Assembly (NCBI RefSeq): GCF_001718315.1
Contig: NZ_CP013363.1
Location: 2,294,001 to 2,358,000 of the forward strand
Direction: 5' to 3'
Source of the DNA: Burkholderia diffusa
GTDB taxonomy: Bacteria; Pseudomonadota; Gammaproteobacteria; Burkholderiales; Burkholderiaceae
Length of the DNA: 64,000 nt
A program made the position numbers and the translations under genes. Within the stretch, counting starts at the first letter, position 1. The number at the start of each line of letters is the position of its first letter. Of this stretch, positions 13,453 through 29,996 are shown piece after piece. The notes beneath the pieces were generated by a model that saw nothing but the letters and a program-made list of their open reading frames with translations, was not told the DNA's origin and ran no database searches.

Positions 13453-13637
13453 CTCATGCGGAAATTGGTCGGTGACCCGCAAGAATCGTTTGCGGCTCAA
13501 CGCATTAGGTAATCAAGGGAAGTGGCGAACTACCTTCGCGGCTCGTTCCAACACCGATCGAGGCTGACCATTCGGTGGATCAATTTCGATCCGCCGGCAC
13601 TGCAGTCACCTGTTCGCGAGAAAGGGAAGGAGGTCGC

Positions 13638-14393
13638 TTATTCAGCTTTCCCGCTGCGATGCACGGGAAGTTCGTAGGTGCGCGTACCGCCCCAATCGTC
13701 AATTGCACCGAACTTGACTGTGACGTTGTCGGCCGGCTGCGCAATTGCTTTTTCGACGTCGAAAGCGCTCGTGCTTCTCGGCAACACGTATCCCGGTTTA
13801 GCCTCGTATTCATTTCCCCCCGACTTCAACATGACGTATCCCAAGTTGACGACGTAGGGCGTCGGGTTCACTGCGCTCAACGTGTATCCGCCCGTACCCT
13901 TACGCGCGAAACTCCACTGCAATTCTGATGGCGCCGAACTTGCGGAACCTGGCAGTCCATCAGGGCGGTACATCATCTTTACTCGGGTCCGGAAGGCAAC
14001 CTGAAGCTTGTTCCGGCCATCTGCACGCGAGGCGCTCGGTGGAATTTCCAGCACGTTGAGCCAGAACAGCGATTCCTTGTCGCTTGGCAGCGTGTCACCG
14101 TCGCGAATGATGCGAAGCATCTGACCACGGCCGGGCTCCAGACGAAACATGCTGGGTGTCAACGTGAAGGGCACGTCGATCAGATCCGGAGATTCATTGA
14201 AGTTGCCCGTGTCGAACCATGCCTGGACCAACGCCGGCACCTTCCCTTCATTCGCCACCTTGACGGTCACCTCACGCTCTGCGCCGGAGAAGATCACGCG
14301 CGTTCCGGCCAGCACGACACCTGCCGACGCATTGGCACAAAGAAAGGTCGAGACGACGACGAGGAGTGTTGACAGGAGCTTCCTTTTCTTCAT
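13638..14393 (-). CDS. Periplasmic fimbrial chaperone (FimC/PapD family)
   Basis: 251 residues with a signal peptide (LLSTLLVVVSTFLCANASA). The family features are the start GVVLAGTRVIFSGAEREVTVKVAN, the motif LVQAWFDTG, and the signature LFWLNVLEIPP in the first Ig-like domain. The Arg near the start (GTR) and a downstream Lys (VRVKMMYRP) fit the subunit-anchoring residues of PapD-like proteins. GGAA lies just before ATG 14393. It folds and escorts the pilin and adhesin of this operon to the usher encoded next. Confidence 0.93.
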   Translation of the reverse strand: MKKRKLLSTLLVVVSTFLCANASAGVVLAGTRVIFSGAEREVTVKVANEGKVPALVQAWFDTGNFNESPDLIDVPFTLTPSMFRLEPGRGQMLRIIRDGDTLPSDKESLFWLNVLEIPPSASRADGRNKLQVAFRTRVKMMYRPDGLPGSASSAPSELQWSFARKGTGGYTLSAVNPTPYVVNLGYVMLKSGGNEYEAKPGYVLPRSTSAFDVEKAIAQPADNVTVKFGAIDDWGGTRTYELPVHRSGKAE

Positions 14394-14503: not shown

Positions 14504-15061
14504 TTACTGGTAGTTCAGGGAGTACTGAACGCGCGTATTGACCGCACCGGCTTCAACGGCGCCCGTTGCAATATATTCGGCGTAGTAATCCATCTTGGCC
14601 TTGCCGTCCTTGCCAATGTCGACGAGCAGCGAATTCTGATCGCCCGCTGCCCCGACCTTCACCGGTTGCTGCTGTGCGTTCAACACCTGGAGTTCCACGT
14701 TCTTGGCGCCAGGCGCCTCGGTCGTCCCCGCATCGACGGTCAGGCGGCCCGTCGATTGATTGACGCTCGGGCCGGCTTCGAAGGTCACGGCAACCTTGGT
14801 CGGATTGCCCTCGCTGGTCGAGCATCCGGTCAGGGACAGACTGAACGGGGTCCGGCCTGCCGACTTGCCCGCCTCTCCCAGCGCGGTCGTGGACACCGGC
14901 GGCAGCGTCACCGTAAGGTCTGCGGGCCCGCCGTCGGGTTTGCAGGTCGACGCAATGACATTACCGTTGAACGTGATCGTGCCGTCGGATGCGTAAGCAG
15001 TCGCGGCGGAGAAGAAACCTGCCGAAACGAGCAAGATCGGGAGGAGTGCGTTTTTCTTCAT
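14504..15061 (-). CDS. Type-1-like major fimbrial subunit (FimA family)
   Basis: 185 residues from ATG 15061. The signal peptide starts MKKNAL and ends before SDGTITF. The mature protein has the FimA-type start GTITFNGNVIASTCK, the second Cys in SLTGCS, and the C-terminal donor-strand pattern TRVQYSLNYQ. The first six codons and the DNA just upstream are almost identical to those of the other pilin gene (23465-24115), although the mature proteins are unrelated. It is the first gene of the leftward operon pilin-chaperone-usher-adhesin, and expression is expected from the copied leader upstream. Confidence 0.9.
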   Translation of the reverse strand: MKKNALLPILLVSAGFFSAATAYASDGTITFNGNVIASTCKPDGGPADLTVTLPPVSTTALGEAGKSAGRTPFSLSLTGCSTSEGNPTKVAVTFEAGPSVNQSTGRLTVDAGTTEAPGAKNVELQVLNAQQQPVKVGAAGDQNSLLVDIGKDGKAKMDYYAEYIATGAVEAGAVNTRVQYSLNYQ

Positions 15062-15422
15062 GTCGAATGACTCATGGAAGTTAATCAAAGGATTCAGAAT
15101 GACCGGACAACAGCCCCTTTTCCTCGGGGACACATCTCTAGATCAGCTCTGACACCAACCGATGAGGCATTGAATTCCCTCATCGGGAACGGCTAAGCAA
15201 ATTGTCGCGATGTAAGCAAATTGAAACAATCGTACCCAGCATGAATGGCCAATCCTCCAGGCTCGTACCCGTACGAAAACGAATATTTGCCCAAAATCGT
15301 TTGACGTCCGAAATTGACTTCGCATCCTGATGCAAGGCCTTCCGCGGCGCTTTCATGTCGCTGGCAGATCGCCGGAATGCGGCGACGACGTGCGGCTTCG
15401 ACCCCGTTTATGAGTCGAGGCG
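15062..15422 (-). promoter_or_regulatory. Leader and promoter region of the first pilin gene (duplicated copy A)
   Basis: Nearly identical to 24116-24477, including everything from the pilin start codon outwards. It holds a C/G hairpin in the 5' untranslated region (CCCC...GGGG around 15114-15129) and two direct 11-mers, TAAGCAAATTG, at 15194-15204 and 15213-15223 with a 19-bp period. A clear sigma-70 -35/-10 pair could not be fixed. The 11-mers are candidate binding sites for the RcsB-like regulators of the island. Confidence 0.6.
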
Positions 15423-15769
15423 ATGCCAGTCAGCGAAAAAATCGGCATTGATATTGCCCGGCGCATTCAGTCCACCGCGTTGGACCGATGCGATAAGTGG
15501 CATCTCGACAAACAGGTGACAGCGATCAATGACAGAAGAACGGGCGTGCCAAGTGGTGGACCAGTCAGCCCGTGTATGACGGAAGGCGATGCGCCGCTAA
15601 AAGAGTACGCGCAGGAGAAACAACAGCTGCGCATGCGGACTTTTGAATCACGGGACGCAGCGACATGGAATCCGATGATGGATCGCCGTGCCGGACGCTC
15701 GGAAATGGAGAAGCACTTCGATTCTGGTCGCACGCCGCTCGACAACGCGACCGTGCCGCCCGGGATGGT
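15423..15769. other. Degraded copy of the small reading frame found at 24478-24699
   Basis: The first 28 codons (MPVSEKIGIDIARRIQS...) match those at 24478, after which the copy has small insertions and deletions and the frame is lost. Otherwise the stretch holds only duplicated intergenic DNA. Confidence 0.4.
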
Positions 15770-16124
15770 TCAATCGCTCGCCCCGGCATGACGCGATTCG
15801 TGATCCGTCGCGATCCGCTCGAGCACCGACGTCACATTGGTGCGCACCCCGGCGAGCGCATCGGACGCGTCTCTGCCGTCAACGGCCGGCGCGTGGCGAA
15901 TCACGTCCTCCAGCCGCAAACAGGCATCGATCACCGCCTGCTCGTGAATCATCGCAAATGCACCCTTGATCGAATGAACGCGCGAGCCTACGGTTTCCCA
16001 GTCGCCATGGGCCATCGCCTCGTCAATGGCCGACAGCGACTCGTCCAGGATCGAGAAATTCGCTCTTGATCAATGCGTTGGTCTGCGCGGCTTTGGCCCA
16101 GTCGATGAAAGCTTGATCTGTCAT
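15770..16124 (-). pseudogene. Hpt-domain fragment copied from the hybrid sensor kinase
   Basis: From about 16045 to 15770 the reading frame matches the last ~90 residues of the complete kinase (24816-27866) almost residue for residue. This includes the phosphotransfer motif [11 protein letters not shown] and the end HAGASD. Upstream, ATG 16124 opens MTDQAFIDWAKAAQTNALI in a different frame. A one-base shift near an A/T run (about 16060) would join the two into a stand-alone Hpt protein of about 118 residues. As it stands the phosphotransfer part has no good start. It is best read as a leftover of the duplication that also copied the pilin promoter; a once functional solo Hpt is possible. Confidence 0.65.
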
Positions 16125-16419
16125 GGTCGTCAAAACAAAACGAATCCTGGCGAGCCGCCGGGCGTTTGAACGGGGGCGAGAGTGGACGCATAATGTCACG
16201 CGTCTTGTTGCCGAGCGAACCGAGTTTTCGCAGCTGATCCCATGGCGCAGCTTCGGGCGTCGTCTCCGGCACAGTTTCTGCCTCGGATGCCTCCTGCTCT
16301 CGCTTTCGTCCGCATCCGCATTTCTCCGTCGTAAGCAGCACCGGCTCAGCACCGGCACCGGCGATTCGCAATTCCGACATCCGCTGCAGCGTGCTGTATG
16401 TGTCGCCATCGAACTTCAT
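15988..16419 (-). CDS. Doubtful hypothetical protein after the tip adhesin gene
   Basis: ATG 16419 lies 15 nt beyond the stop of the tip adhesin gene and opens a frame of 143 codons. The first 60 residues look protein-like (MKFDGDTYSTLQRMSELRI, then a Cys-Gly-Cys cluster and an acidic Glu/Thr/Pro stretch). The rest runs out of frame through the Hpt fragment and is Arg-rich, as expected of a shadow frame. The gene may have been cut by the duplication junction. I do not recognise it. Confidence 0.25.
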   Translation of the reverse strand: MKFDGDTYSTLQRMSELRIAGAGAEPVLLTTEKCGCGRKREQEASEAETVPETTPEAAPWDQLRKLGSLGNKTRDIMRPLSPPFKRPAARQDSFCFDDHDRSSFHRLGQSRADQRIDQERISRSWTSRCRPLTRRWPMATGKP

Positions 16420-16434
16420 TTCGACCACTGCGGG

Positions 16435-18006
16435 TCAGTTCCATTCGCCTTTCACGACGACTTCCCCCTTCGCCTCCACGGTGCCAACCCAGGCGTTGCC
16501 GGCCACGTCGAGGTTCAGTTCCTGCGGCGACAGCGGGAAGATCAGGTCCATATCAAGCGAAGCCTTATAGGGAAAGTCACCGCCGACGATCTCGCGCCAC
16601 TTCATCGACGCAATGTCGTAACTGATGCCGCTGCAATTGTCGGGCCGGTCGATCAACTCCGTGCCGCTGTGGAAACGCACGTTGGCGGGGATGCCGACCA
16701 CGGTCGCCCCCTGGTTGCCCACGAACTTGCAGCGGGGCCCCTGTGGCGTGGAGATGCTGTCAGCCACCACCTGGACCGACACCTTGGTGGCCTTCGACGC
16801 GCCGAACTGCCCGATTGTCAGTGGGATCATGATCTGGGGATCTTGTCCGACGCTGCCGGAATAGCGACCGAGCGCGGAAGAGTCGTGCTCGTCGATGGTG
16901 ACGCCAAACGTGAGACGCTTGAGTTGAACGTTCGAGAACAGCCCGAGCGGTCCGGTCAGTTGCGGCATCTGGTCGGGCGCCATCATGAGGGTCAGTGCAT
17001 CCAGCGAGACGGTATCCTGAGTGCCGAGCAAGCTCAACAGGTAGGCCCCCGTTGTGACCAGCGTGGTGTTCCCGAGCTGGCCGATGTCGACGCGATCGGT
17101 CTTCTGGCCGTCGACGAGCAGCCACGCCTGATTGGCATCGACGTTGTCCAGCTTCACCGTAAAGCCGCCGGGCACGGTGTTGACCCGGGTGCGGATCGGA
17201 CATTCCATGCGGTCGCCTTTGCTGATGCAAGCGTCGGGTACGCGATGAACGATGTTGCCCTGCGTGACTTCCACGGTCCCGGTGATCGGCTCGACTTCGA
17301 CTGCGAAGCGGGTCGGCTGGACATGTAGCAGGTGCAACACATAGCCTACCCCGTAGCCTACCTCACATGCGTACCGGGCCCATTCGGTTATGTACCAGTC
17401 TCTCCACTGGACCATTGCACCGATATCAAAAGGTCGACCATCGATGATGGCCGACGCGATCATCCTTCTCGCGCTGCCATCCATCACCTGTGTACCAATC
17501 GGGGACTTCCCGGCTGTCAACCCGATGTCACCCAATCTGGTGGCGAACAATCGCAGGCCGTTGTATGCACCGCCGCTGGCAGCATTTACGTTTTCGGGAC
17601 GGCTGAACGGCAACGCGGGATTGCGGATATCGGACGTGCGAGAAACGGACAGCGAAGCGACTTGGGCCGACGCGTCTGTCACCCAAAACCCGGCGGAGAC
17701 ACCACCAATCCAGACTGAATTTAATGTATTTGAAGGGAACGCCGCCGCCAGTTGCGATTGAGCCGGATTGCCCCGATCAATGTATCCAACGAGTGCGCCA
17801 TTTTCGATGAGGCCGTTGGTCGATAGATAGATCCGGTCGCCCGCCGCGACCTGAATCGGCTGGATGCTCGTCTCGTATCTCGACCGCTCCTGGCTCGCGG
17901 GACAGTTCGGCGGCAAGAACGGGTTGTAGGTTGCGAACGCATCGACTGCTGGAATGCCGGCCAGCGCGCTGGTGACGCAGATAAAGCGAAATATTCTTGA
18001 GAACAT
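16435..18006 (-). CDS. Tip adhesin of the alternative chaperone-usher pilus (EcpD-like)
   Basis: 523 residues with a signal peptide (ICVTSALAGIPAVDAFA). By eye the C-terminal third follows E. coli EcpD: a Cys-bearing stretch CKFVGNQGATVVGIPANVRF, then DNCSGISYDIASMKWRE and the end GNAWVGTVEAKGEVVVKGEW. The length is also close to EcpD (about 547). The N-terminal domains are much less conserved. It is the last gene of the pilin-chaperone-usher-chaperone-adhesin operon, 89 nt after the second chaperone. In E. coli the adhesin gene precedes the second chaperone gene, so the order is swapped here. It probably caps the fibre and binds host or matrix; the ligand is unknown. Confidence 0.8.
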   Translation of the reverse strand: MFSRIFRFICVTSALAGIPAVDAFATYNPFLPPNCPASQERSRYETSIQPIQVAAGDRIYLSTNGLIENGALVGYIDRGNPAQSQLAAAFPSNTLNSVWIGGVSAGFWVTDASAQVASLSVSRTSDIRNPALPFSRPENVNAASGGAYNGLRLFATRLGDIGLTAGKSPIGTQVMDGSARRMIASAIIDGRPFDIGAMVQWRDWYITEWARYACEVGYGVGYVLHLLHVQPTRFAVEVEPITGTVEVTQGNIVHRVPDACISKGDRMECPIRTRVNTVPGGFTVKLDNVDANQAWLLVDGQKTDRVDIGQLGNTTLVTTGAYLLSLLGTQDTVSLDALTLMMAPDQMPQLTGPLGLFSNVQLKRLTFGVTIDEHDSSALGRYSGSVGQDPQIMIPLTIGQFGASKATKVSVQVVADSISTPQGPRCKFVGNQGATVVGIPANVRFHSGTELIDRPDNCSGISYDIASMKWREIVGGDFPYKASLDMDLIFPLSPQELNLDVAGNAWVGTVEAKGEVVVKGEWN

Positions 18007-18095
18007 GTTCGATCAGTTTAGGTAAGGGTTGTGCCGCTTGCGCGTCGAGTTGACGTACTGGTTGTGCCGTTTGTGCGCTTTCCATGCGCGGCCCG

Positions 18096-18743
18096 TCACC
18101 ATGTGATTTCGAACTCCTCCATCTCGGCGCCGTTGGCGAGTACGACCCGAACCGACTCTCGCTTCTGCTCGAACTCGCCGAGTTCCAGGGATTCGCCCGG
18201 CGCCAGATAGCGATCGGTCATGCAGTGCTGCGCAATGGCGCAAGCGCCGCGAGCCGTGGCCAGCATGACCGTGTTGCCGTCGTTGATCAGGCGCGCGCCG
18301 TCGAGTCGATGGAATTGCCGAGGCTGGCGAGGTTGCACGACAAGCACCGTCTGGAGGCTCAATCTCGGTTTGACCGCCACGGCATCCACCTCCATCGCGA
18401 CCGCGCGCTCTTCGCGATAGATCACCTGGAAAAAGCGCGGCGTATCGTCGTTTTTCCCTTTGTAGTAAAGCCTGAGCCATCCGCTCTGCCCCGGCCGCAA
18501 GACCAGTTGCTTCGGCGCATACATCAGGTCGCCGCCTTTCGGTTTCCACGTTTTCGCGTCGCCATAGGGGGGCGCGCTTTCAACGACCGACACGCTGTAG
18601 ACGCGAGTCCGATCGCTGTCGTTGACCACTTCGCGCACCAGATAGTCCTGTCTGGCGTTCATGAAATACGTCATGTCGCCGACCGACAATGCCTGCGCGG
18701 AGCACGCCCAAATTGCCGTCAATAGCGCTATGCAATATCTCAA
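18096..18743 (-). CDS. Second periplasmic chaperone of the alternative pilus (EcpE-like)
   Basis: 215 residues with a short signal peptide (CIALLTAIWACSAQA). It shows the chaperone pattern of alternative chaperone-usher systems: MTYFMNARQDYLVREVVNDSDRTRVYSVSV, then LRPGQSGWLRLYYKGKNDDTPRFFQVIYRE. It is clearly related to the chaperone at 22671-23378 and keeps the YYxG motif. Two chaperones in one operon is the arrangement of the E. coli common pilus, where one serves the pilin and the other is thought to serve the tip adhesin. It lies directly before the adhesin gene, which supports that pairing. Confidence 0.85.
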   Translation of the reverse strand: MRYCIALLTAIWACSAQALSVGDMTYFMNARQDYLVREVVNDSDRTRVYSVSVVESAPPYGDAKTWKPKGGDLMYAPKQLVLRPGQSGWLRLYYKGKNDDTPRFFQVIYREERAVAMEVDAVAVKPRLSLQTVLVVQPRQPRQFHRLDGARLINDGNTVMLATARGACAIAQHCMTDRYLAPGESLELGEFEQKRESVRVVLANGAEMEEFEITW

Positions 18744-19069
18744 TTCATTTCCTCATTGGTTGGCCGGCTCTCCAGGCACTGGCGACGACGCTGGCGCCCG
18801 GAGAGCCAGAAAAAAGAGCGTGTTTCGATCTCGGTGAGCGCTTCCGTTTGAGCATGCGCGACTTGCGCGCGTTGCCCCGATTTCGATAGGCGTACGCCCT
18901 GAACATGCATGCCCGAAGGACGTCTCCAAGCGGCCAAACGCGACCTTCGGATGCTTCAGCAGGCTGGCACGCAGGTATGCGCCCGCACGCGGATCGATCG
19001 ACAGCAAACAAGCTCTATCCACCCAATCGGGACCGCAAAGCGCCTCGAACCGAGACGCCGCGCCATGAC

Positions 19070-22000
19070 TTAACCTTCCCGCTGACGCGGCACACTCGAC
19101 CGTGCAACGCTCTTGGGTTTGCATTCGACCTGATCGACCCAGAGCGCACCCTGCGCCTTGGTCAAATCGAAGTCGATTTCGCAAGTGCCGCCTGCATCGG
19201 TCTGGTACTGAATAGCCGGATACGCGGAGTCGACGTCGATCACGAATCCACCGTCGGCGGCAGTCGTCGCCTTGCCGATGTGATTGCGGATCTCCGTATT
19301 CGGCTTCACCGTACCGTTTTCCGTCAGCACGCCGAAGACGGTCACAAGACGACGCACCTTGGGTTGCATCGACGCGACGTTGCCCGGATAGAGCACAAGC
19401 TTTGCTTCGCCACCCTGGATATCGAAGTTCTCGGGCGTGTCGCGACGGGTCCGGATGTTGACCTTGTGCTCCTTGTAGCCGGTCAACGGCACGAAAGTGG
19501 ACCTCCCGTCGAGCGACTGAGTACCGCCGCTCGATATCATTTCCAGATTGCCGCGCGCCGTCTTGTCGACATTGACGATCACGCCGCTCTCGCCCTTCTT
19601 GCTGTTGAAGCCGATACCGCTCGTATTCCAGCCCACGCTGCCCTGCACCGCTGCCGTGCCATTTGCATCGCCGGTCTCGTCGACGTTGACGTTGCCTTGC
19701 CAGCCGAACCAGCGGTTGTGCCCCTGCGCGCCGAGATTCAGCTGTGTGCTGCTCGAGTTGCCGTATTGACTGCTATTCAACGACCGGGAACGATTCACGC
19801 CGGCCGACAGGTAATCCACACCGGCGATATGCGTCGGACGCCAGCCGACATGCGCGCCGATCTGTTCGCTGTCGAGCGAACGCGAATAGTCGATACCTGC
19901 GTCGCCCCACGAGAACGTCGCGTTCAGTCCGACGTAAAATGCGCTGTTCCATTTCCGGCCGCCGTTCCCGCTGCGGCTGAACATTTGCCCGCCGTTCAAG
20001 GTCATGCGCACCCACTTGTTGCTGTAGACGTCCTGGCTGTAGTCGATGCGGTAATCCTGGCTGCCGCCGTTATACAAGCTGCCGGACAGGTTCAGCGTCG
20101 CGTTGTTCTTCCACCCGAACATCCTTGCAATACTGATCGTCGAGCCGAAACTCGTCGTGCGCTGGTTGTAGATGCCGTTCTTCTCCGTGCTCCCGGTCGT
20201 CAACATATAGTTGGCCCAGGCGCCCAGCGGACCAATGTTGGCCGATCCGTTCGCGTTGAATCGATAGCCGCCATCCGTGGTGGCGCCGGTGTCGACGCCG
20301 ATCGTGCCGTGCTTGAAATCGCGCTGATAGCGCAGTTCCGCGGCAGCGAGCCCGTCGAAGTAGTAGCTGCTCCCGTAGAACGTGCCGAGTTTCGTGGCCT
20401 TCTTGCCGCTGACACCGAACATGGGCTGGCTGACCGAGCCCTGGCCACGGATATTGTTCGCGATGTATTGGCCGCCATAGACCTGAAACTGCGTATCGGC
20501 GCCGCCGCCACCATTGCTCGGCTTGTAGACCTGCTCGGTCTTGGACGACACGACACGCCCGTTGACCACCACGTCCACGCGAACCGTATAGCTGCCGACC
20601 GGCAGCGGGCGCGTATTGATTTCCTGATTCCCGAGCGGCAGTTGCTGGACATTGATCAGTTTGCCGTCACGGTAAAGCTGCACCTCGCCCGATGCAGGCA
20701 TGAACGCAAAGATCGGCGTACGTGCCAACGAACCGTCGTTGATCTCCGACCGGCTCGCATTACCGGCACTCACGCCGATAAAGCGCCCGCCCGGCAGGAA
20801 CGTCGTTTGTCCGAGCGCACTCATCGACCATGTGCTGAGATAACCGCCCGTGATCGCGAGGCCGCGATAGTCACGCTCGAGGCGCGCTTCATAGAGGTTG
20901 AAGTCGTCGCCGCTGCGGATATCGCCCTCGACATACGCGTGATTGACGCCGACACCGGTGACCGATTGCAGATGCAAATAGCCGTTCGCATCGGACCGAG
21001 CGTTCTTGACCACGGACACGTCGTAGTTCAACACGCCGCTCAGGTGCTGTTCGGTGCTGTCCGCGAGATTGTAGGAGCGTGCCTCGCCCTCGCTGGAATA
21101 CGCCGCTTTCGGCAATTGCGCGATCACTTCGAACGTGCGGAGATTGAACTCGGTGCGAATGCCATTCACATTCGCGCCGGCCGGCGACATTTCCGCCACG
21201 ACTTTAAGCGGTTTGCCGTAGCGGCTTGCGATCAGTTGCTTCGTTGCCTCAGTCAGCTTGATCTTGTTCAGCGCGAAGTCCGTCAGCGTCAGCGCGCCGT
21301 CGACATACTTGACGCTCGCCTTGCCCGCCTCTTCCGTTCCGTTTTCCGTCGTGATCCGTACCGGCACTTCAACGCCCTGCTCGAGTGCGCCCAACAGATT
21401 TTCCGGGAACGAATAGGTGCCGACGGTCAGCGCGCCGTCGCCTTTCGTCTCGCCATCGATGGCAATGGCATCCGCTTCCGGCATGCCCGAGGCTTCGGAC
21501 GCGGACGCATCAGCCTCACCGGAGGCAGGCAACACGGACGATGCAGCACGCGCGCCATTAACCGGCGTCTCGGCCCCCGTCACGGTTGACCCTTCGGCCG
21601 GATCCGTCTCCGCTGCCGGGAAAACCGTCTTCTGTGCAATCGGCTTCGCAAACGGATCATCAAGCGAGACCCTGGTTTTGACCATGCCCGGTCGAGCCAC
21701 GTCTCGCAATTCATCCATCGTCGTGCTCGACAGCGCATCGTTATGCACATTCACGGCCGACGAAACGCTGGCGACAGGACCGACCACGTCGACGTCTCGC
21801 GGAGAGCGAGCGTCGTCGCCGGACCACATTTTCTGCGCTTCCGTCACGGACGTGGCGGCGACATCGGCGACGCCGCGTACGACAGACGCTTCCGCGTCGA
21901 CGACCGGCTCTTCGAGCGATCCGCTTGACGGCTCATCCACCAGTCGAACCTGAGCGGTTCGCTCGTCAGGCGTATCGCGTTGATCCGCCTTCCATGCCGC

Positions 22001-22618
22001 CGCTTCCGATTTCAGACGTGCGATCGCGTCGTCATTCCGACGTTCCGGCTGCGCGCCATCGACTCGCGACGCCACGGATTTGCCGTCAACCAGCGCTGAC
22101 GGCACGCTGTCGGCACTGATGCTCGACGCGCCCCTTACCTCACCGGCGCGCGCGGCTTTCGATGCACCGACCGGCACGTCGAGCGACACGCGCGTCGCGA
22201 TTGCACGCTTGGCTTTCGCCCGGCCAAAGGCTCGCTGTTTGATCGCACCGGATGTCTTCGACGCGGCGCCGCCAGGTCTGATCCACTCGACACCACCAGG
22301 CGCGATAACGTCAGCCCGATCCGCCCGCACATGCCGGATGGCGGATTGCGGGGCGATCTGGCGCCAGCTCCCGGGGTGCCACCTTCCGTTCTCATCGAGC
22401 TGCCACGTACGGCGGACGGTACCAGCCCCCATGGGTGTCGCAGCCGGAGGCGCTGCCAGCGGAAAAATCGAATGTTTTGCATCCAGCTTCGCGAGCCCGA
22501 TCGGCAGCATGTCTTCACTGAACCGGATGGACTGATCCGATGCAAGCACATCTGACGACACCCACCCTCCCATCAGGGATATCGAAAGGCGAATGGCTGT
22601 CATTCCTTGCTCGTTCAT
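19070..22618 (-). CDS. Alternative-class outer-membrane usher with a long N-terminal insert (EcpC-like)
   Basis: 1182 residues from ATG 22618; a second ATG five codons in is also possible. A short hydrophobic signal-like segment (IRLSISLMGGWVSSDVLA) is followed by about 340 residues (roughly 55-395) of Ala/Ser/Asp/Glu/Val-rich, low-complexity sequence without recognisable fold. The usher proper begins near residue 399 (TVGTYSFPENLLGALEQG). It contains the Ig-like and barrel features of CfaC/EcpC ushers: EVQLYRDGKLINVQQLPLG, NTRPLPVGSYTVRVDV, and a C-terminal Cys pair (GGTCEIDFD...VECKP). The usher part alone (about 785 residues) is close to normal family size. It exports and assembles the alternative pilus. 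The insert is unusual and not explained. Confidence 0.88.
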   Translation of the reverse strand: MNEQGMTAIRLSISLMGGWVSSDVLASDQSIRFSEDMLPIGLAKLDAKHSIFPLAAPPAATPMGAGTVRRTWQLDENGRWHPGSWRQIAPQSAIRHVRADRADVIAPGGVEWIRPGGAASKTSGAIKQRAFGRAKAKRAIATRVSLDVPVGASKAARAGEVRGASSISADSVPSALVDGKSVASRVDGAQPERRNDDAIARLKSEAAAWKADQRDTPDERTAQVRLVDEPSSGSLEEPVVDAEASVVRGVADVAATSVTEAQKMWSGDDARSPRDVDVVGPVASVSSAVNVHNDALSSTTMDELRDVARPGMVKTRVSLDDPFAKPIAQKTVFPAAETDPAEGSTVTGAETPVNGARAASSVLPASGEADASASEASGMPEADAIAIDGETKGDGALTVGTYSFPENLLGALEQGVEVPVRITTENGTEEAGKASVKYVDGALTLTDFALNKIKLTEATKQLIASRYGKPLKVVAEMSPAGANVNGIRTEFNLRTFEVIAQLPKAAYSSEGEARSYNLADSTEQHLSGVLNYDVSVVKNARSDANGYLHLQSVTGVGVNHAYVEGDIRSGDDFNLYEARLERDYRGLAITGGYLSTWSMSALGQTTFLPGGRFIGVSAGNASRSEINDGSLARTPIFAFMPASGEVQLYRDGKLINVQQLPLGNQEINTRPLPVGSYTVRVDVVVNGRVVSSKTEQVYKPSNGGGGADTQFQVYGGQYIANNIRGQGSVSQPMFGVSGKKATKLGTFYGSSYYFDGLAAAELRYQRDFKHGTIGVDTGATTDGGYRFNANGSANIGPLGAWANYMLTTGSTEKNGIYNQRTTSFGSTISIARMFGWKNNATLNLSGSLYNGGSQDYRIDYSQDVYSNKWVRMTLNGGQMFSRSGNGGRKWNSAFYVGLNATFSWGDAGIDYSRSLDSEQIGAHVGWRPTHIAGVDYLSAGVNRSRSLNSSQYGNSSSTQLNLGAQGHNRWFGWQGNVNVDETGDANGTAAVQGSVGWNTSGIGFNSKKGESGVIVNVDKTARGNLEMISSGGTQSLDGRSTFVPLTGYKEHKVNIRTRRDTPENFDIQGGEAKLVLYPGNVASMQPKVRRLVTVFGVLTENGTVKPNTEIRNHIGKATTAADGGFVIDVDSAYPAIQYQTDAGGTCEIDFDLTKAQGALWVDQVECKPKSVARSSVPRQREG

Positions 22619-22670
22619 TCGGAGTCCAAATTTTAATACGGTTGAAATGAAGTAAGGAGGAAAGCTTCCT

Positions 22671-23378
22671 TTACTTGGCGACGATCCTGGTCGGCGTGGT
22701 ATGTGCCGGGAAATACTGGTAGTCGGTACCCTTCCAGATACCCACTCCATCGAGTGTGCGAATGCCGCTGCGTTTGCTCATGTCCATCGTCTCCCCAGGT
22801 AACAGGAAAGCCGACCGGCTGCATGCCTGAGGATCCTGGTTCCCCTTCTCCTCGCATTTCCCCGTGGCGGTCACGTGAATGAACGTATTGCCCGTGTTAC
22901 GCACGTTGCCCTTGCCGTCCTGTTCGAACGTGAAACGGATTGCACGCGGCCGAACAACGAGAATCGAGCTCAGGCGGATGCGCTGTTTCGCCGAAACACT
23001 GACACCACCCTTGAGCTGGGATTCGGACGAAACGGATTGCTCGATGAAGGAAAGCTGGTAATAGCGTTCCTTGTCGTCGCGTTCGCCCTGGTAGTAAATC
23101 TTGACATCGGCCTTTTGGTGCGGCGGAAGAAATACGGTTGCCGGCGAGACCAACACATCCTTCCTTTGCGCTGGCAGGACTTTGAGCGTTTTCGGGTCGC
23201 TGACCTGCTGAACCTCCGTCGACACAAACTTGGCTACCGAGTCGTCGTTTTGAATCTGCTTGACGACATAGAATTCCTTCTCTTGCATCTCGGTCGTCAA
23301 CGAACCAATGCCGATCGCGCCCGCCGGCGAAACACACGCCGCCGCAACCGCCAGCACAAGAATCTTCAGATTTTTCAT
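22671..23378 (-). CDS. Periplasmic chaperone of the alternative pilus (EcpB-like)
   Basis: 235 residues with a signal peptide (ILVLAVAAACVSPAGA). The mature protein reads IGIGSLTTEMQEKEFYVVKQIQNDD, then VFLPPHQKADVKIYYQGERDDKERYYQLSF, the typical first Ig domain of alternative-class chaperones. It has a Cys pair (GKCEEKGNQDPQACS). It lies between the pilin and usher genes, as in the ecp operon, and should stabilise the major pilin before usher docking. Confidence 0.88.
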   Translation of the reverse strand: MKNLKILVLAVAAACVSPAGAIGIGSLTTEMQEKEFYVVKQIQNDDSVAKFVSTEVQQVSDPKTLKVLPAQRKDVLVSPATVFLPPHQKADVKIYYQGERDDKERYYQLSFIEQSVSSESQLKGGVSVSAKQRIRLSSILVVRPRAIRFTFEQDGKGNVRNTGNTFIHVTATGKCEEKGNQDPQACSRSAFLLPGETMDMSKRSGIRTLDGVGIWKGTDYQYFPAHTTPTRIVAK

Positions 23379-23403
23379 CGCAAGCCCTCGAAGAAAATGA
23401 AAA

Positions 23404-23433
23404 TGCCGGACCTCAACCTTTCGAGATCCGGCA
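23404..23433 (-). promoter_or_regulatory. Hairpin between pilin and chaperone genes (second pilus operon)
   Basis: TGCCGGA (23404-23410) pairs with TCCGGCA (23427-23433), and an inner CTC/GAG extends the stem past one mismatch. It occupies the same place as the hairpin at 14424-14458 in the other operon, although the sequence is unrelated. A role in keeping pilin mRNA more abundant than the downstream genes is likely. Confidence 0.45.
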
Positions 23434-23464
23434 CCACCAGAGTTAGACCGGTATCGAAGCTTGC

Positions 23465-24115
23465 TTACGCGTCAGGCGTTTTCCAGCTGGCGACGAAACG
23501 CACTTCCACGTCGCCGTTGTACTTGCCATCCGCGACGTTGGCGAGATCCGCACCAGTGAGCTTTGCACCGGCGTTGTCCGTGCCTTCGGCGATCGAGAAC
23601 TTGACCGGCACGCCGTTCGCCTGGTGATACGAACCGTTCGGCGTCTTGTTCGCGCCGGCCTTCGACAGGTTCATGTTCTGCAGACCGTTGGCGGCGGTCG
23701 TCGGGGCGGTGTCACCTTTCGTGCCGGCCAGGATCTGGACCGGCGCGTCACCCAGCTCGATACCGCCGAGTTCCACGCCGACCTTCAGCGTGTCTTTCAC
23801 GCCGCCTGCCGCTGCGTTCAGCGTATTGCGGGTGACTTGCGCTTCGATCGAATAGCCTTCGCCGCCCTGGTATCCCGCCGCCATCACGGTCAGCGCGCGA
23901 TCCTGCGACGTGAATGCGTTGTTCGCGACGCTCCAGTCGAAGTCGAGGTTCGTGCTGCCTTCTGCATACACGCTCAGGGTCACGTCGGACTTCTTGACCA
24001 CCGAGGCGGTCCACTTCACGCGCGCTTCTTCGGTAGTGGTTGCCGCGATAGCCGGGGCGGCGATCGCGAAGGCCAGTGCGGATGCCGCGGCGAGACGGAG
24101 TGCGTTTTTCTTCAT
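23465..24115 (-). CDS. Major pilin of the alternative pilus (EcpA/Mat-like)
   Basis: 216 residues from ATG 24115. The signal peptide is MKKNALRLAAAS...APAIA. The mature protein starts ATTTEEARVKWTASVVKK and ends GKYNGDVEVRFVASWKTPDA. This follows the layout of E. coli EcpA (W-x-A near the start, G-x-x-S/N-G-D-V-x-V-x-F-x-A-x-W at the end). There are no Cys residues, as expected of this pilin class and unlike the FimA-type pilin at 14504-15061. It is the first gene of the second pilus operon. A relation to Burkholderia cable pilin is possible, but the gene order fits ecp better. Confidence 0.85.
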   Translation of the reverse strand: MKKNALRLAAASALAFAIAAPAIAATTTEEARVKWTASVVKKSDVTLSVYAEGSTNLDFDWSVANNAFTSQDRALTVMAAGYQGGEGYSIEAQVTRNTLNAAAGGVKDTLKVGVELGGIELGDAPVQILAGTKGDTAPTTAANGLQNMNLSKAGANKTPNGSYHQANGVPVKFSIAEGTDNAGAKLTGADLANVADGKYNGDVEVRFVASWKTPDA

Positions 24116-24477
24116 GTCGAATGACTCATGGAAGTTAATCAAAGGATTCAGAATGACCGGAAAACAGCCCCGTTTTCCTCGGGGATACATCTCTAGATCA
24201 GCTCTGACACCAACCGATGAGGCATTGAATTCCCTCATCCGGAACGGCTAAGCAAATTGTCGCGATGTAAGCAAATTGAAGCAATCGTACCCAGCATGAA
24301 TGGCCAATCCTCCAGGCTCGTACCCGTACGAAAACGAATATTTGCCCAAAAACGTTTGGTGTCCGAAATTGACTTCGCATCCTGATGCAAGGCCTTCCGC
24401 GGCGTTTTCATGTCGCTGGCAGGTCGCCGAAACGCGGCGACGACGTGCGGCTTCGACCCCGTTTATGAGTCGAGGCG
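24116..24477 (-). promoter_or_regulatory. Leader and promoter region of the second pilin gene (duplicated copy B)
   Basis: Counterpart of 15062-15422. It has the leader hairpin CCCCG-N7-CGGGG (around 24168-24185) and the direct 11-mers TAAGCAAATTG at 24249-24259 and 24268-24278, again 19 bp apart. The two copies differ at only scattered positions, so the repeats and hairpin are kept intact in both. No convincing sigma-70 elements could be fixed. Confidence 0.6.
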
Positions 24478-24699
24478 ATGCCAGTCAGCGAGAAAATCGG
24501 CATTGATATTGCCCGGCGCATTCAGTCCACGGCGTTGGACCGATGCGATAAGTGGCATCTCGTTAAAGGGAGCGATCGAGATCAGCGGGAAGAAGAGCTG
24601 GCGTGCCGCGTGATGGAGCAGTCAGCCCTAGTGCGAGAGAAAGCAATGCGCCGCTACAAAGAAACGCGGAAGAAACGACAGCCGCGCATGCAGCTTTGA
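24478..24699 (+). CDS. Small hypothetical protein (73 aa), uncertain
   Basis: ATG 24478 opens a frame for a 73-residue basic protein starting MPVSEKIGIDIARRIQS and ending in a Lys/Arg-rich helix (EKAMRRYKETRKKRQPRM). It lies divergently upstream of the alternative pilus operon, next to the kinase 3' end. The first 28 codons are preserved in the duplicated copy at 15423, where the rest is frameshifted. There is no strong ribosome-binding site (GAGG 3 nt upstream). It may be a real small protein whose second copy has decayed, or a chance frame. Confidence 0.3.
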   Translation: MPVSEKIGIDIARRIQSTALDRCDKWHLVKGSDRDQREEELACRVMEQSALVREKAMRRYKETRKKRQPRMQL

Positions 24700-24815
24700 A
24701 TCACTGGAAGCAGTGGCCCGGAATCCGATGACGGATCGTAGTGCCGCATCTCTCAGGAATGTGCTCCGATTCTGACAGCACGCCCGCTCGACAACACGAC
24801 CGTGCCCGTGACAGC

Positions 24816-27800
24816 TCAATCGCTCGCCCCGGCTTGATGCGATTCTTGATCCGTCACGATCCGCTCGAGCACCGACGTCACACTCGTGCGGACTCCGGCC
24901 AGCGCATCGGACGCCTCTCCGCCATCGACGTCCGGCGCGTGGCGAATCACGTCTTCCAGCCGCACACAGGCATCGACCACCGCCTGCTCGTGAATCATTG
25001 CGAATGCGCCCTTGATCGAATGAACGCGCGAGCCCACGGTCTCCCAGTCGCCATGGGCCATCGCCTCGTCGATGGCCAACAACGACTCTTCCGTGCGCTG
25101 GTCCAGCGCGGCCACGAGGCTTGGCGACAGCACGATCGACCGTTCGGCCGCGGCTACGATCGCCGCGGCGGCGTGCGGATCCGCAGCGAGCTTCAGGTGC
25201 TTGCGCGCAACCGCATCGATCGACGCAAGCGACATCGGCTTGAGCAGCACGCCCGAAATCCCCGCTTCCTGCGCGCGCCGCGTATTGGCCGCCGTGACAT
25301 CGGCGGTAATCGCGATGATCGGCGTGCGCGCGCCTTGAGCGCGCAGGCACGTCGCGAGCGTGTAGCCATCCATCGCCGGCATCGCCAGATCGGTCAACAC
25401 CAGGTCGTAATGCCGCTCATTGAAATAGCGCAGCGCGACGAGACCGTTCTCGACGATGTCGTACGTATAGCCGAGCGCGTCGAGCTGGTCGCGGATCAGT
25501 TCGCGATTGACTTCATGGTCCTCGGCCACGAGCACATGGATGCCGCGCAGGTCGGCGTCGTCATCCGGGGTGTCGACGTCCATTTCCACGTCAAGCGCCG
25601 TTTCGTCATCAGGCGATATCGGCACCGTCACGGTGAAGGTGCTGCCACGTCCGACCTCGCTGTCCACCGCGATCGCGCCGCCCATCGATTCGGCAATGCG
25701 CTTGCACAGCGCGAGGCCCAGCCCGGTGCCACCGAAGCGCCGCGTGATCGACACGTCTGCCTGATCGAATGCGTCGAAGATGTGCACCTGACGGTCGGCG
25801 GCAATGCCGATCCCCGTATCGGTCACATCGATGACGACCGGCGACGCAGAAAGTTCGCCCCCGCCTGCCCGCACGTCGATCGACACATGGCCGTCATCGG
25901 TGAACTTGATTGCATTTCCCACCAGGTTGACGACGATCTGCCGGATGCGCCCCGGGTCACCGACATAGTGACTCGGCAGCGCGGGATCGATCGACCAGGT
26001 GAGCGCGAGCCCCTTGCGTTGCGCGAGCGGCATGAGCATCGCGACCGCCTCCGAGATCAGGCGCGCCAGGTCGAACCTGATCGATTCGAAACTCATCTCG
26101 CCCGCCTCGACCTTCGAGAAATCGAGGATGTCGTTGAGAACGTCCAGCAACGCGCGCGACGACGACGCGACCGTGCGCACGCGCGCCGCGACGGGTGCTG
26201 CTTGCGGCAGGCGCTCCAGTAATTCGAGGTGGCCGAGAATCGCATTGAGCGGCGTGCGGATCTCGTGGCTCATCGCGGCGAGAAAGGCCGTCTTCGCCGC
26301 GTTCGCGCTGTCGGCCGCATGCTTGGCCGCGGTCAGCTGGCGAGCCAGCCGACGTTCGGCCGTCACGTCGGAAAATGCCGCGACCACCACCGGCCGCCCC
26401 TGATAGTGCGCCGGCGTCAGCTTGGCCGCGAGATCGATCATGCCACCGTCGTCGCCAGGCAGGCTCAGCTGGATGTCGGCCGTCGCCGCCTGGCTGCCGC
26501 GCTGCTCGAGGAACACTGCCGGCGCATGGCGCTTCAGCACGTCACCGATGAGCGTGCCGTCGCGCGCGCCGACACGGGCCTCGAGTGCCTGCATATGCGC
26601 GCTTTCGAGCAGCACGGTGTTGTCGCTCACGTTGACGAGCGCCAGCCCGACCGGCGCTGTCTCGATCAGCGTGCGACTCAGATGTTCGCTGTCGAACACG
26701 CGCTCCGAACGCTCGAACAGCGGCGCGACGACCTTGCGATTGAAGAGGAGGACGAACGTCCATAACAGCACGAGCGCGAGCGCGGTGGCGCTCGCGGTGC
26801 CGGCAATGCGCCGCGCCACCGTGTTCACGATGACATGCCGGGGCAATACGTAGACGAGCGACCATCCCGATCGGGCGAGCGGCATGGAAATCGTCATCGC
26901 GCCATCCGCATAGCGCTCGGTCAACTGCGACGACGACGCGTTCGCCCGCTGTTCCGCGAGCACCTGCCGGATTGTCGCGCTGCCAAGCGGCGGGGCCGAC
27001 GTGCTCACCACGGGCACGCCGCGCGCATCGACGATCATGTACGTACCGGCAAACGAACCCGGAACGAGCGACTCGATCAGCCTTTCCGGCATGTACTGCC
27101 CGACGACGACACCGAAGGGCCGGCTGCCCTCGAACATCCCGGCGGCGACGCGATAGTACGTCTGCCCGGTCACCGGATCCGGCTCCGGTGGCAACCAACG
27201 GAGCTCGCGCGCGCTTTCCCGCGGGACGGCCCACTGATCGAAATTGTCGAGACCGGCCAGGTAATAGCGGGCCAGGCGCGCCCGATCGGCAATGGCGCGA
27301 GCCACGCGCGGATCGGACAACTGAGGCAGCGGGCTGATGCCGACTACCGACATCGAAGGGAAGACCACGTACCCCATCGCCTGCCACGACATATATTGCG
27401 CTTCGCTCTGCGATTTCATCTGGTGCCGGGAAAAGCCGGCAGGGCCTTTCGCGTACATCAGAATACGACGCAGCTCGTCGTCCGGACTCCGCGGAGCGCC
27501 CGGCAGACGGAGCAACAACGGCAGGTTCACATCCGCCGTGGACGGAAAGACCATTTGACCGCCATGTGCGTCGAACCGCCGCCGCATCTCGGGATCGGCA
27601 AGGCCGGAAGCTTCCCAGGCGGTCTCGCCCTGCACGGCAGCGAGCCGCACGCGGACCGCGCTGACGTAGACCCTGTCGAGCACCAGCGCCTGGTCGCGAC
27701 TGAACGTCTGCCGCTCGTCACCGAGGTAGCTACGCAAGGCCCCGGTCAGGCTTAGCGCGAACGTGAGCAGGATGAAGAACGTCAGTACCCCGGCGCCCGA

Positions 27801-27866
27801 GAACAACAGGATCTGCTGATGGGTGCGAAAACGGCTGAGCAGGTTGAGCGACGGGGTCACACGCAT
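24816..27866 (-). CDS. Unorthodox hybrid sensor kinase (HisKA-HATPase-REC-Hpt) of the pilus island
   Basis: 1016 residues. Membrane helix near 20-45, a periplasmic sensor region of about 310 residues, and a second helix near 350-375. A PAS-like region follows, then HisKA with [13 protein letters not shown] (His near 534) and HATPase boxes [12 protein letters not shown] and [10 protein letters not shown]. The receiver has its Asp near 825 in [11 protein letters not shown] and the Hpt domain its His near 949 in [11 protein letters not shown]. This is the RcsC/BarA/EvgS type of phosphorelay kinase. It lies upstream of, and in line with, the alternative pilus operon and divergent from two RcsB-like regulators, its likely partners. 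The last ~90 codons are duplicated at 15770-16045. The signal is unknown. Confidence 0.93.
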
Positions 27867-28096
27867 GGTGGGCCTTGACGTAAGCGAGTTCGGGAACAGT
27901 ATCGAGCTTCAGTATCGCGACCGCGACGCACACCGGCACGCAAGCGACGATGCGCGTTCACCGGCGCGCGGCTCACTGCCGGCCAAACAAGACGAGTATG
28001 ATCCATACTTCGCTCCCTTCGGGATGCCGGCGCCGGGGCCGCCGCATCGTCGAATGGCGAGCGACCACAATATCCGGGGCGGCAATCGCGAACAAC

Positions 28097-28765
28097 ATGA
28101 ACCAGTTTTCGATACGAGTGGTTATCGCGGACGATCATCCGACGGTGCTGGGTGGGCTCGTCCACACGCTGGAGCCGATTAGCACCGTCAAGGTCGTCGC
28201 GACGTGCGGGAACGCGACCGAACTCATCAAGACACTCGAGCGGCAGCCCTGCGACATAATCGTCTCCGACTATGCGATGCCGGGCGGCGAATACGCCGAC
28301 GGTCTCGCGCTCTTCGAGTACCTGCAGCGGCATTATCCGGACATTGGCCTCATTGCGTTGACGGTAATGGACAGCCCCGTCGTGATCCGCTCGCTGATGT
28401 CGATCGGCATTTCGTCGATCCTGAGCAAATCCGATGCGACCGGCCATATCGTCACCGCGATTCATGCACGTTATGCGGGCGGTGCGTATTTATCGCCGAT
28501 CATCGAAGCGATCGTCAAGCAGGCGGAGATCGATTCGCCGGGCGCCGCACAACCGCTGTCGCCACGCGAACACGAAGTGGTCCGGCTGTTCGCATCCGGC
28601 CTGTCGACGACCGAAATCAGCAAGCGCCTGAACCGCAGCAAGCAAACGGTGAGCACGCAGAAGGCGGCGGCAATGCGCAAGCTCGGCGTCGCGAACGACG
28701 TGGAATTGATCCGCTACGCGATCGACGCGAAACTGATTCCCGCCTCCCCTCGCAACACAGAATGA
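28097..28765 (+). CDS. RcsB-like response regulator (NarL/FixJ type), first copy
   Basis: 222 residues from ATG 28097. The receiver starts IRVVIADDHPTVLGGL, and the phospho-acceptor Asp is near 58 in VSDYAMPGGEYADGLAL, strikingly like RcsB. The C-terminal LuxR-type helix-turn-helix reads LSPREHEVVRLFASGLSTTEISKRLNRSKQTVSTQK. It is divergent from the hybrid kinase gene with a 230-bp gap. It probably receives phosphate from that kinase's Hpt domain and controls one or both pilus operons; RcsB also acts on the ecp operon in E. coli. It is clearly paralogous to the next gene. Confidence 0.9.
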   Translation: MNQFSIRVVIADDHPTVLGGLVHTLEPISTVKVVATCGNATELIKTLERQPCDIIVSDYAMPGGEYADGLALFEYLQRHYPDIGLIALTVMDSPVVIRSLMSIGISSILSKSDATGHIVTAIHARYAGGAYLSPIIEAIVKQAEIDSPGAAQPLSPREHEVVRLFASGLSTTEISKRLNRSKQTVSTQKAAAMRKLGVANDVELIRYAIDAKLIPASPRNTE

Positions 28766-29345
28766 GTCCGGCCGCGTAACGGCGGGGCAACGCCCCCCGC
28801 GCACGCCCGGCGCCCTGCTTGCGGGTCGGAAAATTCAGAAGACAAGAAGACATCTTGTCTCAGCTCGGCCGAGCGTTGCGTGACCACATTCCCTCAAGCA
28901 TCTGCACATCCGGCTCGAACGCCTCGCGGCCATACGCGAGGCGCTCGTGAAAATCGGCGCTTGCATCGTCGATTGGCCGCGCCTTGAAAACGCGTTCAGC
29001 CACGGCATCCTGAGCAGCCGAGCCATTGTCCGATCGAGATTTCGTACATGTACGACGTCATCTTCCCCTACGTCGATCACGCATACGATACCGGCCACAC
29101 CGCAATCTCACTAGACTTTCCAGTGCCCTTTCCCGACGCGCATCTTCATCGGATGGCGAGCGAGTTCGCAACGAGCGATCGCGCTCGCCATCCCGGATCG
29201 ATGACGATCCGGCACCGGCCGACAAGGTCCCGCGCCGCCGTTTGACGCGCGGCGAACCGGTCGGACGCGCAGCGACGTCTTCGGCGTTCGATCGCCATGG
29301 TTTGGGAAACGCCCTTTGCCCAGTCGTTCACCGGATAACCCTCGA
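28766..29345. other. 580-bp gap between the two response-regulator genes, with an inverted repeat
   Basis: No credible gene is seen. The notable element is a perfect inverted repeat AGACAAGA (28840-28847) / TCTTGTCT (28853-28860) with a 5-nt spacer, 75 bp after the first regulator gene. It could be a transcription end signal without a U-run or a binding site. The rest should contain the promoter of the second regulator gene, which I could not place. Confidence 0.4.
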
Positions 29346-29996
29346 ATGAAGAAATTCGCCATACGCGTCGTGATTGCCGACGACCATCCCGCCGTGCTAT
29401 TCGGTTTGCAACAGATCCTCGAAACCGTCGACACGTTTCGGCTTGTCGGCGTCTGCCAGAACTCGACGGAACTGATCTCGACGCTGCGACGCACACCGTG
29501 CGACGTCGTGCTGTCCGACTATACGATGCCGCCTGGCGAATACGGCGACGGGCTGGCCCTGTTCGGCTACCTGCAGCGGCATTTCCCCGACGTCGGGCTG
29601 GTCGTGTTCACGATGATGTCCAATCCCGTGGTGATCCGTTCGCTCATTACGCAAGGCGTGTCATCGGTACTGAGCAAGGCGGATCCGATCGGGCACATCA
29701 TCACGGCGATTCACGCGAGCTACGCAAGCGGCAAGTACACGTCGCCGAGCATCAGCGCCCTCCTTGCCAACGCGCAACTCAGCGCGCCCGGTCCGATGCA
29801 CGATCTTTCTCCGCGCGAGGCAGAGGTGTTGCGGCTTCTGGTCTCCGGACAGTCCGTCGCCGACATCGCGAGGCACTTGAGGCGCAGCAAGCAGACGGTC
29901 AGCACGCAGAAACGCAGCGTGATGCGCAAGTTCGGCGCGGCGACCGACATGGAACTGATCAAGTTCGCATTGGAAGCCACCGATCAGCGTAAGTGA
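29346..29996 (+). CDS. RcsB-like response regulator, second copy
   Basis: 216 residues from ATG 29346. The receiver starts IRVVIADDHPAVLFGL, with the phospho-acceptor Asp near 58 in LSDYTMPPGEYGDGLAL. The DNA-binding domain is LSPREAEVLRLLVSGQSVADIARHLRRSKQTVSTQK. It resembles the first copy along its whole length but differs in the DNA-recognition region, so the two may bind different or half-overlapping sites or form heterodimers. It is the last gene of the pilus island. Confidence 0.9.
   Translation: MKKFAIRVVIADDHPAVLFGLQQILETVDTFRLVGVCQNSTELISTLRRTPCDVVLSDYTMPPGEYGDGLALFGYLQRHFPDVGLVVFTMMSNPVVIRSLITQGVSSVLSKADPIGHIITAIHASYASGKYTSPSISALLANAQLSAPGPMHDLSPREAEVLRLLVSGQSVADIARHLRRSKQTVSTQKRSVMRKFGAATDMELIKFALEATDQRK

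Follow-up and report, generated by a model that had tools for sequence, protein, structure and literature searches.

Two unrelated pilus operons behind duplicated copies of a leader block with a putative operator in Burkholderia diffusa

The stretch analysed here, called the window, comprises 64,000 nucleotides of the Burkholderia diffusa genome (GCF_001718315.1, contig NZ_CP013363.1, positions 2,294,001 to 2,358,000 of the forward strand) and contains two chaperone-usher pilus operons of different class, each preceded by a copy of the same block of DNA. On the minus strand, the order was a hybrid kinase gene, block copy 1, an operon resembling that of the E. coli common pilus (ECP) at 24115-16435, 388 bp of decayed DNA, a detached kinase tail with block copy 2, and a type-1-like operon from 15061 to about 9011. 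The two copies of the block were as follows:

24097 to 25092, minus strand: block copy 1, with six pilin codons, the leader, a spacer and the true 3' end of the kinase gene
15043 to 16046, minus strand: block copy 2, with six pilin codons, the leader, a spacer and the detached 92-codon kinase tail

BLASTN aligned the two copies end to end in a single alignment in the same orientation, with 897 of 1010 positions identical (89%) and an E value of 0.0. A first-pass annotation made from the letters alone had described a block of about 1 kb present twice in one orientation, and the pairwise alignment bore this out as more than scattered similarity. Each copy contained ATGAAGAAAAACGCACTC (MKKNAL, the start of both pilins), the leader, the spacer and the last 92 codons of the kinase gene, so that the shared pilin start and the kinase-gene end that had been noted both fell inside the block. 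The shared identity stopped six codons into both pilin genes. Chance similarity of the copies was ruled out by the E value, and an assembly artefact is disfavoured, since the copies differ by 11% and the genome is assembled in three contigs.

The block was found at just two places in its own genome (6.86 Mb, three contigs; search at E 0.001). Among 65 genomes of the genus, some match was present in 11, own genome counted. The sole strong match besides the own genome was in G060 (B. territorii; E 5e-120), identical at 84% across the end of the kinase gene and at 77% in part of the leader, and the next best was in G040 (8e-10). When the leader alone was compared with 398 genomes of the family, 11 matched at E 0.001, and the operator part of the leader matched strongly in the own genome and G060 only. 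Six of the remaining leader matches (G272, G377, G385 and G330) fell in a decayed IS6-family transposase described below.

As had been proposed, a different pilus class followed each copy according to the Pfam and NCBIfam matches, ECP-like at 24.1 kb and type-1-like at 15.0 kb. The ECP-like genes were arranged in the order EcpA/MatB-like pilin, EcpB-like chaperone, TcfC/CooC_C usher, second chaperone and EcpD-like tip. Another ECP-like operon was observed on contig C3 of the same genome (L061 6758-17634), followed by its own regulator and hybrid-kinase matches and without the leader or the palindrome described below.

23465 to 24115, minus strand: ecpA-like major pilin (MatB PF16449 above cut-off; PDB 3qs2 at 7e-6)
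22671 to 23378, minus strand: ecpB-like chaperone (Pfam EcpB_C above cut-off)
19070 to 22750, minus strand: open reading frame (ORF) of the ecpC-like usher, start probably near 22618 (TcfC and CooC_C above cut-off)
18096 to 18743, minus strand: putative second ECP chaperone, ecpE-like, with a TTG start (weak EcpB_C match at 0.018; 60% to the same-place gene in the C3 ECP operon)
16435 to 18006, minus strand: putative ecpD-like tip adhesin (NCBIfam EcpD at 1.7e-6, far below cut-off; 44% to the C3 paralogue)

The identities of EcpA, EcpB and the usher rest on Pfam matches above cut-off, and the assignments of the tip and the second chaperone are weaker. Against the NCBIfam EcpA model, the ecpA-like pilin scored 69.8 of 200 bits (2.5e-19), below the equivalog cut-off. 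The ecpD-like tip had no Pfam match, and no related solved structure was found for it. The usher ORF was unusually long (1226 residues), with Pfam matches starting at residue 677. Its C3 paralogue (an ORF of 1036 residues) was 69% identical from residue 368 of the search stretch onward and matched weakly (31%) before that point; the search stretch (19070-22648) starts inside the window's ORF.

The type-1-like operon was arranged as FimA-type pilin, PapD-type chaperone, PapC-type usher and fimbrial tip, all four of which were above Pfam cut-offs:

14504 to 15061, minus strand: fimA-like major pilin (FimA and Fimbrial above cut-off, for the stretch from codon 2)
13638 to 14393, minus strand: fimbrial chaperone (PapD_N and PapD_C)
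10843 to 13500, minus strand: fimbrial usher (Usher, PapC_N and PapC_C)
9691 to 10755, minus strand: fimbrial tip protein (Fimbrial domain at residues 200-354)
9011 to 9654, minus strand: last minor pilin, apparently interrupted, with halves in different frames and a 3' end common to B. territorii

Upstream of the pilus genes lay the kinase gene, and two regulator genes were divergent from it:

24816 to 27866, minus strand: hybrid sensor kinase of 1016 residues (HisKA-HATPase-REC-Hpt by Pfam)
27950 to 28765, plus strand: ORF of response regulator 1, RcsB-like, protein start probably near 28097 (Pfam Response_reg and GerE)
29316 to 29996, plus strand: ORF of response regulator 2, RcsB-like (Pfam; best PDB phmmer match RcsB at 3e-42)

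For regulator 1, searched as the stretch 28070-28765, which starts inside its ORF, and for regulator 2, the best NCBIfam model was RcsB, below cut-off in both cases. Pilus genes are linked at this locus to an Hpt-bearing hybrid kinase and RcsB/NarL-type regulators, whose scores stayed under the NCBIfam RcsB cut-offs. Eight of the 398 family genomes, the own one included, had an orthologous kinase (at least 57% identity, E 1e-220). A type-1-like operon followed the kinase gene in G060, G064 and G063 and was placed past regulator 2 in G292 and G112. G365 had no more than weak pilin matches at its kinase locus, and G040 had none in the stretch examined. A duplication of the regulator pair to match two operons was ruled out, since B. 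territorii has both regulators with one operon. A pair of hybrid kinases in the same orientation and about 19-29 kb apart, sharing 36-39% identity with the kinase of the window, was seen in at least 12 of the genus genomes (n = 65).

Each leader held a 7-2-7 inverted repeat, TTCGTAC-NN-GTACGA, a layout that is the geometry of NarL-type dimers. The exact form TTCGTACNNGTACGA matched three times in the 6.86-Mb genome, in both leaders and upstream of regulator 2, and twice in B. territorii (7.0 Mb), where one match lay in the leader and the other before regulator 2. With the reversed pattern as control, the counts were one and none, respectively. The three sites in the window, each an exact TTCGTACNNGTACGA match and listed with the span of its 16-base form, were:

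24317 to 24332, minus strand: operator-like 7-2-7 repeat about 200 bp upstream of ecpA
15262 to 15277, minus strand: operator-like 7-2-7 repeat about 200 bp upstream of fimA
29041 to 29056, plus strand: operator-like 7-2-7 repeat upstream of regulator 2

With a symmetric 7-2-7 score and up to two mismatches, ten sites were found in 205,254 bases of eight orthologous loci: three in the window, two in B. territorii, one each in G292, G112, G365, G064 and G063, and none in G040. All ten preceded a gene for a pilin or a regulator, and the regulator in question is located past the pilus operon in G064 and G063. Beyond the window and B. territorii, similar sites preceded pilin or regulator genes in five of six genomes. 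The background at the same threshold was one site in 377,029 bases of 44 other loci, from which loci overlapping the orthologous, C3 or other background loci, duplicates, loci of the palindrome search and loci under 2.9 kb had been removed. No site with up to two mismatches was present in the C3 ECP operon, and sites with three mismatches were near chance level. Of eight genomes scored genome-wide at one mismatch, four (G000, G060, G063 and G292) had higher counts than the reversed control, and five one-mismatch sites were located at the orthologous loci of G063, G064, G365, G292 and G112. The two pili are likely to be co-regulated, because the exact palindrome is confined to both leaders and the region upstream of regulator 2 and related sites occur at orthologous loci. 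The co-regulation suggested in the first-pass annotation was in this way supported indirectly, by a putative operator. One-mismatch palindromes also stood some 125 bp before the gene of a kinase paralogue that is more distantly related (G064:C2:2040027 and G063:C3:146238), perhaps hinting at a wider regulator family.

Identity between the two block copies was not uniform. The kinase tails were identical at 250 of 276 positions (about 91%) and the spacers at 216 of 284 (about 76%), with a step in identity at about 15473/24528, beyond which the leaders were nearly the same (97%):

24116 to 24528, minus strand: leader copy 1, probably homogenised (400 of 412 aligned bases identical to copy 2; adjacent spacer 216 of 284)
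15062 to 15473, minus strand: leader copy 2, probably homogenised (same comparison, 400 of 412)

Fisher tests on copy-copy identity gave 7.6e-18 for leader against spacer and 4.8e-4 for leader against tail. With B. territorii as third sequence, the spacer was star-like (copy 1 to copy 2, 100/134; copy 1 to B. territorii, 97/133; copy 2 to B. territorii, 102/136). The leader gave 214/220 between the copies and 166/219 and 168/218 between the copies and B. territorii. For the tail, the copies shared 250/276 with each other and slightly less with B. territorii (240/276 and 245/276). Because the leader copies are near-identical while the spacer copies are as distant from each other as each is from B. 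territorii, it is probable that homogenisation of the leaders followed the split, with gene conversion as the most likely route. The earlier proposal that kinase tail and promoter had been duplicated stood insofar as the tail and promoter region do precede two pilus classes, but simple duplication is incomplete as a history, with the leader much more alike than its flanks.

Strong purifying selection on the promoter could in principle have kept the leaders alike without any homogenisation, and the operator and parts of the leader are indeed conserved in B. territorii. Under selection alone, a comparable closeness would be expected of the B. territorii leader, yet that leader is at 76-77% against 97% between the copies, and the 97% tract takes in part of the IS6 fossil and the first pilin codons. 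We regard selection alone as improbable. As to the direction of the presumed gene conversion, the C3 ECP pilin, which is 67% identical to that of the window and has no leader match upstream, likewise begins with ATGAAGAAAAACGCA. The first codons shared by fimA would therefore be of ECP origin, which is suggestive of conversion from copy 1 to copy 2, with the caveat that MKK starts are common.

Between the ECP-like operon and fimA, and within both leaders, remnants of several kinds were found:

15770 to 16046, minus strand: detached kinase tail (Hpt region), with its open reading frame kept
16047 to 16434, no strand: junction of decayed DNA (388 bp) between the ECP operon and the detached tail, with no alignment to the kinase
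15432 to 15539, plus strand: IS6-family transposase fossil, copy 2 (tblastn, 22/36 residues, E 1e-8)
24487 to 24561, plus strand: IS6-family transposase fossil, copy 1 (tblastn, 18/25 residues, E 6e-6)

The transposase query that matched both fossils carries DDE_Tnp_IS240, and 15444-15560 was 73% identical to an annotated IS6 transposase of Paraburkholderia fungorum. No intact IS6 transposase was found in these matches, which span 25 and 36 residues only. The small frame that had been read within the block was located in both copies, and part of it is decayed IS6-family transposase. The B. territorii leader had a gap at the fossil position and no match to that part of the query. Within the junction, 16297-16435 was 73% identical to intergenic DNA of another genome, G005.

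An 81-codon ORF (15770-16015) in the detached tail keeps the His-containing Hpt stretch and has GAGG just before its ATG, which speaks for a reading in which the tail yields an Hpt protein of its own that acts in the phosphorelay. When tail differences were pooled, 14 of 25 were synonymous (P 0.0018 against neutrality). Polarised with B. territorii, with one ambiguous site dropped, the changes were synonymous in 10 of 15 cases for copy 1 (P 0.0014) and in 4 of 10 for copy 2 (P 0.26). A constraint on both tails, suggested by the first codon comparison, no longer held for copy 2 after polarising, and the copy-2 changes are compatible with drift in place. Since drift fits the copy-2 branch, no promoter was identified for the ORF, and a tail copy of such length is expected from duplication anyway, a free Hpt protein appears highly improbable.

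The history of the locus was read mainly from B. territorii LMG 28158. The flanks of the window were orthologous to its locus at 94% (5587-9242) and 91% (24707-30030), and the two loci have in common the flanks, the two regulators, the kinase (91%) and an exact palindrome both within the leader and before regulator 2. The B. territorii locus differs in that its slot holds a third, other type-1-like operon (usher 38%) and, by reading of the sequence, a haemagglutinin-like ORF, and in having a single leader without the IS6 fossil. No match to the ECP usher or ecpB was found in the B. territorii genome. Exactly where collinearity ends, it retains a scar of the last minor pilin of the window type, 91% identical over residues 32-107. 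From the flanking synteny and this scar, the window-type type-1 operon was probably resident before the lineages parted, and the ECP-like operon is probably the newcomer. The latter is also indicated by the distribution of its genes, because the ECP usher (E 1e-20) was found in one of the 65 genus genomes and the ecpB-like first chaperone (E 1e-30) in one of the 398 family genomes, in each case the own genome with two copies. In a plasmid collection, the closest ecpB relatives were about 33% identical or less (best 15 of 42 records), and no record covered 80% of this region or of the C3 locus. A recent copy of the ECP operon from C3 was ruled out by the identity of the pilin (67%) and usher (69%) and by the lack of leader and palindrome on C3.

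The same data bear on an assembly from two donors, in which a segment of kinase tail, leader and type-1 operon from another strain's allele was joined downstream of a kinase-leader-ECP locus, the tail being that allele. Such a join would account for spacers that differ from each other as much as from B. territorii, for the synonymous bias of the pooled tail differences and for the decayed, foreign-looking junction at 16047-16434. The tails are, on the other hand, somewhat closer to each other than to B. territorii, the copy-2 branch fits drift in place, and the scar places a type-1 operon already at the site, which makes two donors rather unlikely in our estimate.

Recombination between the repeats, by which cells might change fibre type, had been raised in the first pass as well. 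Recombination could take place between direct repeats that are about 1 kb long and share a 412-bp core at 97%, and in the consulted part of a report on Burkholderia thailandensis, RecA recombination between repeats duplicates a region holding a pilus and its two-component system (PMC12124856). In the window, the same orientation of the copies would allow deletion of about 9.05 kb, leaving kinase, leader and type-1 operon, or its amplification, and no inversion; loss of the excised circle would be irreversible. Reversible switching was accordingly not supported, an inversion switch being ruled out by the direct orientation of the block copies, which are not the inverted repeats of a phase-variable switch. 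In the fim switch of E. coli, which is invertible, DNA repeats adjoin the type-1 pilin promoter, whereas the window has direct repeats at a distance of about 9 kb, between which no inversion can take place. The divergence of tail and spacer suggests that the arrangement has been kept over time, and a change of fibre type through these repeats seems to us a poor prospect.

We consider it likely that the ECP-like operon was captured behind a copied operator-leader in a pilus slot controlled by a phosphorelay, and that the leaders were later homogenised, placing two unrelated pili under one input. The slot would be ruled by an RcsC/RcsB-like phosphorelay of one hybrid kinase and two NarL/RcsB-type regulators. 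The kinase is predicted to phosphorylate the RcsB-like regulators via its REC and Hpt domains, and a phosphorylated regulator may bind the TTCGTAC-NN-GTACGA palindrome and so activate the regulator-2 gene and both pilus promoters, which would then be co-expressed. The ECP-like operon would have been inserted between the kinase and the resident type-1-like operon, and the join would have left a second kinase 3' end and operator-leader, so that each operon came to stand behind its own copy; the later homogenisation of the leaders was probably by gene conversion.

Several observations weigh against this reading. Shuffles of the window (n = 5) gave 0 to 4 palindrome sites with up to two mismatches on both strands, against 6 observed, and the looser sites alone prove little. 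At one mismatch, the counts of the other four of the eight genomes did not exceed those of the reversed control, and weight can therefore be given to exact or locus-linked sites only. Because two of the three sites in the genome belong to copies of the same block, independent support is confined to the regulator-2 site and the other species, and the near-identical sites of G063 and G064, apparently near relatives, are hardly independent. Promoter scans of either leader on the operon strand gave no sigma-70 match, which is compatible with an activator-dependent promoter and yet is no evidence for one. A terminator-like stem (24184-24168) was present in the copy-1 leader only, between the site and ecpA (two found in the region, 0.8 expected); a genuine stem would require attenuation or else count as a weakness of the reading. 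The interval between the ECP operon and fimA yielded no terminator-like site, so read-through from the ECP promoter may add to fimA expression. A structured RNA leader was rejected as a candidate: Rfam (E up to 1, 9000-31000) gave a single hit, which lay outside the leaders at 25148-25234 and scored far too low for the gathering threshold of the microRNA model concerned.

Elsewhere in the window, two adjacent chemotaxis-receptor-like genes (56795-60280; PAS and signalling region, by eye) were 92% identical over 1545 bp, and a perfect 40-bp repeat was located near them at 55469 and 56742.

The closest known system in logic appears to be cupD of P. aeruginosa PA14 under RcsB/RcsC/PvrSR. In the consulted parts of two reports, this chaperone-usher operon on PAPI-1 lies next to the genes of an RcsB-type regulator and an Hpt-bearing RcsC hybrid kinase that control it, with RcsCB/PvrSR acting on it; the cluster lies between direct repeats and is thought to be horizontally acquired; and a putative RcsB site in the pilin promoter, likened to an RcsAB box at about -75, is needed for activity (PMC2696094, PMC3842833). 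According to the same parts, cupD differs in having one pilus operon, repeats that flank the whole cluster and an RcsB site unlike the palindrome found here, and they describe no second pilus class behind a copied leader (PMC2696094, PMC3842833). For csuFABCDE-bfmSR of B. thailandensis, the part consulted describes a two-component system that activates a linked chaperone-usher promoter and is itself under that promoter, and in which repeats and RecA recombination matter (PMC12124856). There the pilus is archaic, and a 208.6-kb duplication between insertion sequence elements raises regulator dose, as distinct from two classes behind duplicated leaders (PMC12124856).

The ECP-like operon resembles that of the E. 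coli common pilus (Mat/ECP) in its EcpA/MatB, EcpB C-terminal and weak EcpD matches and in its pilin, chaperone and usher with a second chaperone and tip. The order in E. coli is ecpD-ecpE, and the last two genes of the operon in the window are reversed. Its regulation is presumed to be by phosphorelay, unlike that of the E. coli common pilus. A survey of E. coli fimbriae, in the part consulted, names Burkholderia once, in a list (PMC3559732). No title or abstract in the literature searched described this locus, nor two-component systems with this palindrome as target.

The locus belongs to a known kind, two-component-controlled chaperone-usher pili, and what sets it apart is the second, probably captured pilus class behind a duplicated leader. 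It is a concrete case of a horizontally acquired surface organelle that would have been wired into an existing circuit via a copied operator-leader and not via sites evolved on its own. Tentatively, and with less than even confidence, operator-leader and kinase 3' end may be viewed as a docking module behind which unrelated pilus operons (ECP, type-1-like and the third in B. territorii) are exchanged or stacked, its copies being kept alike by gene conversion. If so, a foreign pilus would be brought under existing control in one recombination step. From the private palindrome, regulator targets can also be predicted for two-component systems of Burkholderia and related genera.

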